A DNA stretch of 64,000 nt, taken from assembly GCF_900187015.1 (NCBI RefSeq), contig NZ_LT906479.1, positions 2,108,001 through 2,172,000 of the forward strand. The letters run 5' to 3'. Below are positions 14,986 through 23,419 of the stretch, piece after piece. Under the pieces are notes generated by a model that was not told where the DNA came from, did no database searches, and saw only the letters and a list, made by a program, of their open reading frames with translations. The position numbers and the translations under genes were made by a program. Position 1 is the stretch's first letter, and each line of letters begins with the position of its first letter. Source of the DNA: Serratia ficaria (GTDB lineage: Bacteria > Pseudomonadota > Gammaproteobacteria > Enterobacterales > Enterobacteriaceae).

Positions 14986-16062
14986 ATGAAGCTTGGCGCA
15001 TTTTTAATGCCGGCACATCCACGTTATCGCTCATTACACGACGGCCACTATCACGATCTGGATACTCTGCAGTATCTGGATAGGAGCGGCTTCGATGAGG
15101 CCTGGATTGGTGAACACTACATGATGCCTGCAGAGCCGTGCCCATCGCCGGATTTGCTCATTGCCCAAGCCATTTTGCTGACAAAGAAAATTAAGCTGGC
15201 AACTGGTGCGTTTATGCTGCCATTTCACCATCCTGCCGAACTGGCTCATCGCATCTGTTGGTTGGATCATATTTCTAACGGTCGACTGATGGTCGGCATT
15301 GGCGCCAGCGGAACGACGTTGGATTTGGAAATGTTCAATATTGACCACAAGGCAGGTGTACATAGGGAAATGACCGCTGAGTCGATCGAAATCATGACGC
15401 GATTTTGGAATAGCCCCGGGCCGTTTGAGTATCGCGGTAAGTACTGGACCGTACGACGCCCGGCGGACCAAATGGACAAGTGCTCCGGATACCATCTTAA
15501 ACCGCACCAATCCCCCCATCCACCCATAGGCGTAACAGGCCTTTCTGCTTCTTCGGCGACGTTGAAAATTGCCGGTCGTAACGGCTGGATCCCAATCAGT
15601 TTTTGCTTCACGCCGCAATACCTCCATACCCACTGGCAGGTCGTCGAAGAGGGGGCGGCTCTCAGCGGGCGGGTGACGCCTTCCAGGGATATGTGGCGCG
15701 TTAGCCGACCGATCGTGGTTGCCGAGACGGATACGCAAGCATGGAAGCTTGCCGTTGAAGGCGAAATGGGGCGTTATTTCCGCGAAGACTATCTGCCGAT
15801 GATTGCCGGTAACAATGCACTAGGGCTATTCAAACACCATCCAGACGTAGCCGACAGCGAAGTCACCGTCGAATACTGCGCAAAACACTGCTGGCTCCTC
15901 GGTTCACAGGCGACTGTACGCGAACGTATTGAAGAAATGCAGTCGTTGTCTGGTGGTTTTGGCGTACTGCACGTCATGGGATTCGATCATTTGGAGGAAT
16001 TATTGCCTATACGGGATAGCTACCGCGCTTTGCAGGAAATTGTTGCTACGCACTTTGCGTAA
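14986..16062 (+). CDS. Luciferase-like (LLM) flavin-dependent oxidoreductase
   Basis: A 358-residue TIM-barrel flavoprotein, first gene of the island operon, with AGGAGAG before the ATG. The start MKLGAFLMPAHP and the segment FDEAWIGEHYMMPAEPCPSP are typical of bacterial luciferase/alkanal monooxygenase relatives, followed by TGAFMLPFHHPAELAHR and SNGRLMVGIGASG. These enzymes use FMNH2 from a separate reductase to oxygenate an organic substrate. No flavin reductase is encoded here. It is paired with a cysteine hydrolase, which recalls RutA/RutB of pyrimidine breakdown, but it is not a clear RutA. The substrate is unknown. Confidence 0.85.
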   Translation: MKLGAFLMPAHPRYRSLHDGHYHDLDTLQYLDRSGFDEAWIGEHYMMPAEPCPSPDLLIAQAILLTKKIKLATGAFMLPFHHPAELAHRICWLDHISNGRLMVGIGASGTTLDLEMFNIDHKAGVHREMTAESIEIMTRFWNSPGPFEYRGKYWTVRRPADQMDKCSGYHLKPHQSPHPPIGVTGLSASSATLKIAGRNGWIPISFCFTPQYLHTHWQVVEEGAALSGRVTPSRDMWRVSRPIVVAETDTQAWKLAVEGEMGRYFREDYLPMIAGNNALGLFKHHPDVADSEVTVEYCAKHCWLLGSQATVRERIEEMQSLSGGFGVLHVMGFDHLEELLPIRDSYRALQEIVATHFA

Positions 16063-16117
16063 GCGGGGGTAAGAGGTGAGAACACCGATGTCATTACGGC
16101 GCTTTATGGAGGGAGCC

Positions 16118-16720
16118 ATGCAACGACAAACTCAAGGTTGTGGCCACCGCGCAGCCATTCTGGTGATTGATATGCAGCATGACTTTTTGGATGCGGATGC
16201 TCCCATCCCCTGTTCTGGGGGACTGGATATCGTTGAGTCCCTACATATGTTGCTGGATTTTGCCCGGGGCGAAGGTATTTCGGTGATCTACACCCAAGAG
16301 GCTCATCGCACCAGCCGCGTGGATTTTGGTCGAGAGCTTGATTACGGCGAGACGTTGCATTGCCTTGAGGGCACGCAAGGCGTCGATATTATTCCCCAAC
16401 TTTGCCCTCAGAACGGCGATCTGGTGCTGATCAAACGCCGGTATAGCGCGTTCTTCGCTACCGATTTGGACCTGCTTCTGCGCGGGCTTGGCGTTGATAC
16501 TTTAGTGCTGACTGGTGTGGCCACCGATGTCTGCGTACGTGCTACTGCACAGGATGCAATGCAATTGGACTATCACGTAGTCGTACCGCGCGAATGTGTA
16601 GCAGGCACCAATCTTGAGCGGCATGACGCTGCACTTGAGAACATTAATTATGTATTCGGGAAGGTACAAGACTTAGTCGAAGTCATTGACGTTTTGCGCA
16701 TGCGCGAGGCGGTGGAATGA
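16118..16720 (+). CDS. Isochorismatase-like cysteine hydrolase
   Basis: A 200-residue protein. I choose ATG 16118 because GGAGGGAG lies just before it; ATGs at 16076-16106 have poorer spacing. The catalytic triad of the family is present: Asp18 in LVIDMQHDF, Lys106 in LIKRRYSAFF and nucleophile Cys139 in GVATDVCV. The stretch around the Lys and Cys resembles RutB-type amidohydrolases (KxRYSxFF, ATxVCV). It probably hydrolyses an amide, ureido or vinyl-ether bond of an intermediate made by its neighbours. The end overlaps the TrpD-like gene by ATGA. Confidence 0.85.
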   Translation: MQRQTQGCGHRAAILVIDMQHDFLDADAPIPCSGGLDIVESLHMLLDFARGEGISVIYTQEAHRTSRVDFGRELDYGETLHCLEGTQGVDIIPQLCPQNGDLVLIKRRYSAFFATDLDLLLRGLGVDTLVLTGVATDVCVRATAQDAMQLDYHVVVPRECVAGTNLERHDAALENINYVFGKVQDLVEVIDVLRMREAVE

Positions 16721-21685: not shown

Positions 21686-21724
21686 GCGGGAACCCCATGT
21701 ATGCCGTGTATTAGGAGATAATCC

Positions 21725-23419
21725 ATGACTCAGACTATTGATCCACGCCTCGATCCAACCCGAGACATTCGCGCGCCGCGCGGCAATCAATTGAACTGTA
21801 AGAACTGGCCGATCGAAGCCGCGTATCGCATGCTTCAGAACAATCTGGATCCTGAGGTTGCTGAGAACCCGCAGGCACTGGTGGTCTACGGCGGTATTGG
21901 CCGTGCCGCGCGTAACTGGCAATGTTATGACCAGATCCTGAATTCGCTCAAGGACCTCAATGAGGATGAAACCTTGTTGATACAGTCCGGCAAGCCGGTC
22001 GGCGTGTTTAAGACCCATTCGGATGCCCCCAGAGTGCTGATTGCCAATTCCAATCTGGTGCCGCAATGGGCTAACTGGGAGCATTTTAGCGAACTCGATC
22101 GTAAAGGTTTGTTCATGTACGGCCAAATGACCGCTGGCAGTTGGATCTATATCGGTAGCCAGGGCATCGTTCAGGGGACTTTCGAGACTTTTGCGGAAGC
22201 AGGCCGCCAGCACTATGGTGGAAAACTGGCGGGGCGCTGGATCCTCACTGCCGGATTGGGAGGGATGGGGGGAGCGCAACCGCTGGCAGCTACGCTGGCC
22301 GGCGCAGCGTCATTGAATATCGAATGCCAGCAGAGCAGTCTGGATTTTCGTCTGCGGACCCATTATCTGGATAAACAGGCTAAGGACTTGGATGAAGCAC
22401 TGGCCTTGATCAAGGAACATACTGATGCTGGGCAGGCGGTGTCGATCGGTTTGCTTGGCAATGCCGCAGAAGTGCTACCTGAGTTGGTCAGACGTGCCCA
22501 CGCGGGGGAGATTAAACCTGACTTGGTTACCGATCAGACCTCTGCTCACGATCTTGTCCATGGCTACCTGCCGGTAGGCTGGAGCGTTGCGCAGTGGAAG
22601 GCCGCTCAGCATGATCCGTCGCAACATGCTGAATTGACGGACGCGGCAGCTAAAAGCTGTGCTTCTCATGTGCGTGCTATTCTGGACTTCGTGGAGATGG
22701 GGGTACCGGCCGTTGACTATGGAAATAACATCCGTCAGGTAGCCTATGACAGGGGCGTGGAAAACGCCTTCGATTTTCCCGGTTTTGTTCCGGCTTATAT
22801 CCGCCCTCTGTTCTGTCAGGGTAAAGGGCCGTTCCGTTGGGTAGCTTTGTCGGGCGATCCCGAAGATATCTATAAAACCGATGCAAAGGTCAAGGCGCTG
22901 TTTCCTGAAAACCAACATATCCACCGTTGGCTGGATATGGCGCGTACACGTATCGCCTTCCAGGGACTGCCGGCGCGTATTTGTTGGCTGGGATTGGGGG
23001 AGCGGCATGTGGCGGGGCTGGCTTTCAATGAAATGGTACGCAAAGGAGAACTCAAAGCGCCGGTCGTTATTGGGCGCGATCATCTGGATACTGGCTCGGT
23101 GGCCAGCCCTAATCGCGAGACTGAAGCTATGAAAGATGGTTCCGATGCGGTTTCCGACTGGCCATTACTCAATGCGATGCTGAATACTGCCGGAGGTGCT
23201 TCTTGGGTTAGTCTGCATCATGGGGGAGGGGTGGGTATGGGGTATTCACAGCATTCAGGCATGGTTATCGTCTGCGACGGTAGTGAAGAGGCAGACAAAC
23301 GCCTGGCGCGTGTGCTGGTTAACGACTGCGGTTCTGGCGTAATGCGACATGCCGATGCCGGCTACGAGCAAGCCATTGCCATGGCGAAGAAGTTCGGGTT
23401 GAAGCTGCCTATGCTTTAA
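21725..23419 (+). CDS. hutU: Urocanate hydratase (urocanase)
   Basis: A complete 564-residue urocanase, preceded by AGGAGATAATCC. Family hallmarks are intact: the N-terminal NPQALVVYGGIGRAARNW, MTAGSWIYIGSQGIVQGT, the NAD-binding GRWILTAGLGGMGGAQP, and the active-site part SLHHGGGVGMGYSQHSG with the Cys of VIVCDG. Urocanase adds water to urocanate using tightly bound NAD+ as an electrophile. No hutH, hutI or hutG is nearby, and the gene ends the island operon, so it probably serves the island pathway on urocanate or a close analogue, not simple histidine breakdown. Confidence 0.9.
   Translation: MTQTIDPRLDPTRDIRAPRGNQLNCKNWPIEAAYRMLQNNLDPEVAENPQALVVYGGIGRAARNWQCYDQILNSLKDLNEDETLLIQSGKPVGVFKTHSDAPRVLIANSNLVPQWANWEHFSELDRKGLFMYGQMTAGSWIYIGSQGIVQGTFETFAEAGRQHYGGKLAGRWILTAGLGGMGGAQPLAATLAGAASLNIECQQSSLDFRLRTHYLDKQAKDLDEALALIKEHTDAGQAVSIGLLGNAAEVLPELVRRAHAGEIKPDLVTDQTSAHDLVHGYLPVGWSVAQWKAAQHDPSQHAELTDAAAKSCASHVRAILDFVEMGVPAVDYGNNIRQVAYDRGVENAFDFPGFVPAYIRPLFCQGKGPFRWVALSGDPEDIYKTDAKVKALFPENQHIHRWLDMARTRIAFQGLPARICWLGLGERHVAGLAFNEMVRKGELKAPVVIGRDHLDTGSVASPNRETEAMKDGSDAVSDWPLLNAMLNTAGGASWVSLHHGGGVGMGYSQHSGMVIVCDGSEEADKRLARVLVNDCGSGVMRHADAGYEQAIAMAKKFGLKLPML

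Follow-up and report, generated by a model that had tools for sequence, protein, structure and literature searches.

A six-gene operon shared by Serratia and other genera, a possible source of a small ribose-derived metabolite

A run of seven genes in Serratia ficaria, at positions 14986-23419 of the window analysed here (a stretch of 64,000 nucleotides, C1:2108001-2172000, in a host genome of 5.21 Mb on a single contig), combines two enzyme families of tryptophan synthesis, TrpD and TrpF, with an additional phosphoribosyltransferase (PRTase) domain, a luciferase-like monooxygenase (LLM), a cysteine hydrolase, a transporter of the major facilitator superfamily (MFS), a UbiD-family decarboxylase and a urocanase (HutU). 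The first six of these genes recur in the same order, LLM, hydrolase, TrpD-like, TrpF::PRTase, MFS and UbiD, in all ten clusters fetched, which indicates that the grouping is more than chance. We infer, with a probability of roughly 0.45, that the operon makes and exports a specialised small ribose-derived compound, either nucleoside-like or of the Amadori type. A route to a nucleoside-like compound through ribosylation, Amadori rearrangement and decarboxylation by prenylated flavin had been proposed in the first-pass annotation of this DNA and would still be the best fit to the data, except that the urocanase does not survive as a shared step.

All seven open reading frames (ORFs) are intact, lie on the + strand of the window and are arranged like an operon, and the family of each encoded protein was assigned by Pfam. 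The first gene (14986-16062) encodes an LLM-class flavin monooxygenase (PF00296), and the second (16076-16720) an isochorismatase-fold cysteine hydrolase (PF00857) that resembles RutB, biuret hydrolase and N-carbamoylsarcosine amidase. These are followed by the TrpD-like phosphoribosyltransferase (16717-17805) and by a fusion (17765-18985) of TrpF, the phosphoribosylanthranilate (PRA) isomerase, with a type I PRTase domain that most resembles adenine/hypoxanthine PRTases, as identified by Pfam, NCBIfam, alignments and an AlphaFold model with a fold search. The remaining genes encode an MFS transporter of the oxalate-formate/monocarboxylate group (18986-20236; Pfam and NCBIfam), a UbiD-family prenyl-FMN decarboxylase nearest to AroY and VdcC (20246-21685; PF01977 and PF20696) and a urocanase that is the second copy in the genome (21725-23419). 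The six junctions, from the first gene to the seventh, measure 13, -4, -41, 0, 9 and 39 bases; the seven-gene layout on one strand, the ATGA overlap between the hydrolase and TrpD genes (16717-16720) and the 41-base overlap between the TrpD and TrpF genes are exactly as first described. The start of the fusion is taken as the ATG at 17765; in the ORF list it opens with a TTG at 17636. The GC content of the operon genes is 53-58%, with a GC content at third codon positions of 0.54-0.67; two genes upstream have values of 0.83 and 0.75 at these positions.

The ten clusters comprise all loci in which the fusion is complete or almost complete (the window, L036, L037, L038, L047, L050, L056, L057, L058 and L035) and come from four Serratia-type, one Pseudomonas-type and four Burkholderia-type hosts and from one Rhizobium plasmid. 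The LLM proteins of the other nine clusters are 73-87% identical to that of the window, and in nine of the ten clusters the hydrolase and TrpD genes share 4-8 bases, while in the Rhizobium cluster a gap of 1 separates them. The expected co-occurrence of the fusion with UbiD and HutU is thus borne out for the six-gene core and fails for HutU, which is present in 4/10 clusters, all of the Serratia type. Among the 120 listed of 1081 protein-database matches, 24, the host's own included, cover 99-100% of the fusion and are followed by partial ones; seven fusion entries and UbiD entries in this database carry the same longest-contig value, which suggests linkage in further genomes. The cluster enzymes also resemble each other across genera: the window TrpD is 49-53% identical to the cluster TrpDs of other genera as opposed to 35% to the host's own, and, judged by such identities, the cluster TrpD and TrpF are closer to the cluster copies of other genera than to those of the host (34-35% for the TrpF domain and the host's TrpF).

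The genome sets searched for the fusion overlap and are samples, so that the frequencies are estimates. The fusion is found in 4/30 genomes of the host genus, host included, and in 1/295 family and 1/398 phylum genomes drawn, both being the host itself. It is also present in 1/398 genomes of a Pseudomonas-type genus and in 4/65 genomes of a Burkholderia-type genus, including the full one from a sample of the Burkholderia-type family, in which 2/249 genomes match, one of them in the PRTase part only. No cluster is found in 75 class genomes drawn by 16S signature, and the absence of the fusion from 146 genomes of another genus of the phylum is a weak negative, with no known positive in that genus. 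A scan of genome contigs yields 11 loci that match the TrpF part only. A plasmid or phage vehicle is rejected given a single fusion, on a Rhizobium megaplasmid, among 72,556 plasmid records (E 1e-60) and no relative in one viral-contig scan.

The TrpD-like protein scores as an ordinary anthranilate phosphoribosyltransferase (TIGR01245, 302 bits, above the cut-off of 199) and, in the alignments, keeps KHGN and Arg181. The Ala-Pro of the anthranilate loop, which is retained in three canonical TrpDs (that of the host, 9ucw and 5noe), reads Thr-Ala or Thr-Ser in all six cluster TrpDs aligned, and the His three places further on is Tyr in two Serratia-type cluster TrpDs. It is possible, from these replacements, that the acceptor of the cluster enzyme is altered. 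In the fusion, the TrpF part sits at one PRA-isomerase cut-off (215.1 versus 215), and Cys7 and Asp123, which have catalytic roles in TrpF, are invariant in the fusion alignments. The PRTase domain is barely over the Pfam cut-off (27.1 versus 26.3 bits); its VDD together with the S, GG and T of the loop that binds phosphoribosyl pyrophosphate (PRPP) is invariant in the 24 fusions aligned. The AlphaFold model of the fusion (mean predicted local confidence, pLDDT, 88.9; predicted template-modelling score, pTM, 0.54; low confidence in the linker 208-215) matches both folds, and the PRTase domain comes closest in fold to xanthine and adenine PRTases, with a weaker match to PurR. A stand-alone PRTase domain with 59% identity is found in locus L051 of another genome (G1271). 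The surroundings in L051 (2238-13832) encode two radical S-adenosylmethionine (SAM)-SPASM proteins, a DegT aminotransferase, a 2-oxoglutarate-Fe dioxygenase and an ATP-binding cassette (ABC) transporter, along with three ORFs that match no Pfam family; the presence of the domain in this biosynthetic-looking locus favours a biosynthetic role.

For the LLM protein, the closest solved structure by sequence is 4uwm, 3,6-diketocamphane 1,6-monooxygenase, a type II Baeyer-Villiger enzyme (E 3e-42; the next structure match is at 7e-14), and no NCBIfam cut-off is passed among the 25 models shown. The hydrolase is well short of the NCBIfam cut-offs for RutB (93 versus 378 bits) and BiuH (96 versus 370 bits). 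The MFS gene is present in all ten clusters, the window protein reaching the curated cut-off of none of the named NCBIfam models. The structure nearest to the UbiD protein is that of AroY (5ny5, E 7e-60), and R165 and E280, residues with a known role, are invariant in the eight sequences aligned.

A pathway can be proposed on this basis. The TrpD-like protein would join PRPP to a carboxylate-bearing aromatic or heteroaromatic amine, and TrpF would convert the riboside to an Amadori ketose. The LLM monooxygenase would oxidise a ketone, plausibly this ketose; given that the TrpF product is a ketone, a Baeyer-Villiger-type step appears chemically possible. Cleavage of an amide or carbamoyl group might fall to the RutB-like hydrolase, ribosylation of the (hetero)aromatic ring to the fused PRTase and removal of the ring carboxylate to UbiD. 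UbiD, LLM and the hydrolase are thus candidate base-tailoring genes, with the acceptor of the PRTase domain predicted only. A phosphatase, encoded by a HAD-family gene in two clusters and presumably supplied by the host elsewhere, would release the nucleoside-like product, and the MFS protein would be its exporter. The Serratia-type clusters may have gained a betaproteobacterial-type urocanase, to perform a tailoring step or to serve as the spare of a target. A more specific scheme, in which the tryptophan branch is recruited to a new metabolite class, seems rather improbable: here TrpD-like and TrpF would produce a ribulosyl-aryl amine, the diketocamphane-monooxygenase-like LLM protein would perform a Baeyer-Villiger-type cleavage or rearrangement of the ketose, the fused PRTase and UbiD would process the trimmed core to an exported N-riboside, and the Serratia urocanase would serve in tailoring or self-protection.

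Two groups of nucleoside clusters offer partial parallels. In the tubercidin cluster of Streptomyces tubercidicus (TubA-I), TubE ribosylates the carboxylated base, TubF, a UbiD protein, is proposed to decarboxylate after ribosylation, TubG removes the phosphate and TubI, an MFS protein, is the proposed exporter (PMC6112128). The likeness consists in a purine-type PRTase, UbiD, a phosphate-removing hydrolase and an MFS protein. The Tub gene table, on the other hand, lists no equivalent of TrpD, TrpF, LLM or the cysteine hydrolase (PMC6112128), and the PRTase of the operon, in contrast to the tubercidin enzyme, is fused to TrpF. Furthermore, homologues of GTP cyclohydrolase I, the radical SAM 7-carboxy-7-deazaguanine (CDG) synthase and GMP reductase are missing among the seven proteins of the window, homologues of which make up the cores of the other clusters. 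The adechlorin, pentostatin and pyrazomycin clusters, reportedly recruit HisG homologues and a PriA-type AdeK with HisA activity (PMC13055916), and likewise borrow a phosphoribosyltransferase and an Amadori phosphoribosyl isomerase from amino-acid synthesis (PMC13055916). There, it is the histidine branch that is used (HisG, AdeK) and here the tryptophan branch (TrpD, TrpF); by analogy, the operon would be the tryptophan-branch counterpart of the histidine-branch nucleoside clusters.

Several observations weigh against a biosynthetic operon of this kind. By score, the TrpD-like protein and TrpF pass for ordinary tryptophan enzymes or lie on the borderline, and none of the seven proteins is recognisable as a base-making enzyme from a known nucleoside pathway. 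The operon contains no pathway-specific regulator and no nonribosomal peptide synthetase (NRPS) or polyketide synthase (PKS) gene. The HAD phosphatase gene lies 3' of UbiD in the Pseudomonas-type cluster L047 and in L035 of the Rhizobium phaseoli plasmid, the latter also holding the one UbiX; the stretches fetched for the other eight clusters show no phosphatase gene, and those for the other nine no UbiX. The fold match to PurR, a PRPP-binding regulator, implies that the PRTase domain might regulate rather than catalyse. The oxalate-formate/monocarboxylate MFS group includes importers, so that the direction of transport is predicted only. The combination of a RutB-like hydrolase with an LLM protein also fits catabolism. 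Finally, two of the ten clusters hold broken genes: the TrpF part of L035 is spread over two frames with residues 53-72 unmatched, and in L058 the LLM match ends at residue 319 and UbiD lies in two frames.

The catabolic alternative, although unlikely, is the rival that survives best. The MFS protein would import a (hetero)aromatic acid, UbiD would decarboxylate it, the LLM protein would open the ring and the RutB-like hydrolase would remove nitrogen, while the PRPP enzymes would activate or trap the amine. The pair of an LLM protein and a RutB/BiuH-like hydrolase resembles the logic of RutA-RutB, RutA being the LLM-type partner of RutB in the Rut pyrimidine pathway, where an LLM oxygenase is likewise followed by such a hydrolase; the monocarboxylate affinity of the MFS protein and the AroY/VdcC type of UbiD point in the same direction. 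However, the LLM protein has diketocamphane monooxygenase as its nearest neighbour, no RutA chain appears among the structure matches listed, the hydrolase falls far below the RutB cut-off and the operon lacks the other Rut genes. Neither a catabolic regulator nor downstream steps are adjacent in the window, and spending PRPP on a growth substrate would be unusual.

It is quite unlikely that the operon provides a modified-anthranilate or tryptophan-analogue route finished by host TrpC and TrpAB, or that its TrpD, TrpF and HutU are drug-insensitive spares that protect an antimetabolite producer. The ordinary scores of TrpD and TrpF, the retained Cys7 and Asp123 of TrpF, the ordinary appearance of HutU and a complete trp operon elsewhere in the host (TrpE-G-D-CF-B-A, near 2.87 Mb) are all consistent with such roles, which nevertheless leave the PRTase domain, UbiD, LLM and the hydrolase unexplained and do not agree with the loss of the anthranilate-loop Ala-Pro or with a spare HutU that is not found with six of the ten clusters. 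The operon shares with a canonical trp operon consecutive, overlapping genes of the TrpD and TrpF families and differs from it in lacking TrpE, TrpG, TrpC, TrpB and TrpA, in agreement with the first-pass view that simple tryptophan synthesis is not encoded. The cluster as sole supplier of missing trp genes is rejected, the host possessing the whole set.

An imidazole version, with urocanate or another imidazole acrylate as an intermediate and HutU as a core enzyme, is very improbable: HutU begins 39 bases after UbiD and is kept in 4/4 Serratia-type clusters, with a ratio of nonsynonymous to synonymous substitution rates (dN/dS) of 0.04 between L036 and L038, and copies at least 90% identical occur in 4/30 genus genomes, the same four that hold the cluster, whereas six other clusters (Pseudomonas- and Burkholderia-type and Rhizobium) keep the six genes in order with no HutU found in the fetched stretches, and the nearest non-Serratia relatives of the operon HutU, among the matches listed, are betaproteobacterial proteins named urocanate hydratase. 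The protein scores as an ordinary HutU (TIGR01228, 947 versus a cut-off of 375 bits) and is 88% identical to a Cupriavidus protein, compared with 74-75% to the host's own HutU, which belongs to an adjacent HutH-HutU pair elsewhere in the genome (named by eye, HutU also by score). Being ordinary by score and not found with six clusters, HutU takes support from the imidazole/urocanate side of the earlier proposal, and its candidacy as a core gene is rejected. The operon has HutU in common with the Hut pathway and lacks HutH, HutI and HutG/F, so that histidine breakdown had rightly been set aside. An assignment as thiourocanate hydratase is rejected by score (thiourocanate 677 versus a cut-off of 930, methylthiourocanate 694 versus 880). 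A further urocanase-like protein, with 49-50% identity, is present in 8/30 genus genomes (G003, G005, G006, G007, G017, G018, G020 and G023) and is possibly a thiourocanate-type hydratase.

In genome G002, flanks match those of the window at 90-96% and the cluster is gone from that place; remnants consisting of 124 bases of a clpP-like gene and a HutU piece of the cluster type flank an 11 kb segment. The interval from the clpP-like gene to ychF is rearranged between G002 (L059 16975-17169, L052 9457-9701) and the window (12646-34937, 57702); the 34937-57702 stretch of the window is also not at this place in G002, where the HutU scar adjoins ychF. Relics on two Rhizobium etli plasmids (L041 11921-14417 and L042 6489-14158) comprise a broken LLM gene, a PRTase tail and an MFS gene; the MFS relic lies in two frames in one of the two plasmids, and no other cluster genes match in the fetched stretches. 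A protein named P. aeruginosa, P0063, has an LLM-like start and a PRTase-like end (by eye). From the broken and lost copies, the six-gene unit appears to come and go. The dN/dS values between L036 and L038 are 0.02-0.30 for all seven genes, and the whole copies thus seem to be kept by selection; when the window is compared, synonymous sites are saturated or nearly so. Taken together, the operon is best read, we infer, as a horizontally spread, patchy specialised-metabolite unit.

Upstream of the first gene lies an AT-rich leader (14000-14985; 37% GC, no ORF of at least 120 amino acids), a possible promoter region, around which a promoter scan gives fewer sites than in shuffled sequences. A terminator-like hairpin 3' of HutU (23467-23479, + strand) is a weak candidate, from a scan with 6 terminator-like sites versus 10.1 in shuffles; the same scan, its sites below shuffle level, finds no such hairpin in the gap between UbiD and HutU. 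Each of the four Serratia-type clusters has a stand-alone clpP-like gene (window 13303-13920) on its 5' side; in L036, two further ORFs intervene. Adjoining the cluster on the - strand (window 24507-30574) are ABC transporter genes (sulfonate-type by eye) and a second LLM monooxygenase, 27% identical to the cluster LLM. In one Burkholderia-type genome, a purine-permease-like gene (L050 13905-15290; by eye) is found directly 3' of the cluster.

The pathway had been called unrecognised, and no description of the conserved operon was found in the literature: no title or abstract start among those listed from the open-access literature, for the gene set or for a urocanase self-resistance link, concerns it, a search that leaves most subscription journals outside and the unpublished status of the gene set unproven. 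If the biosynthetic reading holds, the operon, present in several genera, would exemplify compact clusters that lack NRPS and PKS genes and that cluster finders may overlook, and its six core genes would offer a clean set with a directly testable product. Enzymes of the tryptophan branch would then have been diverted to nucleoside-like compounds, just as histidine-branch enzymes have been.

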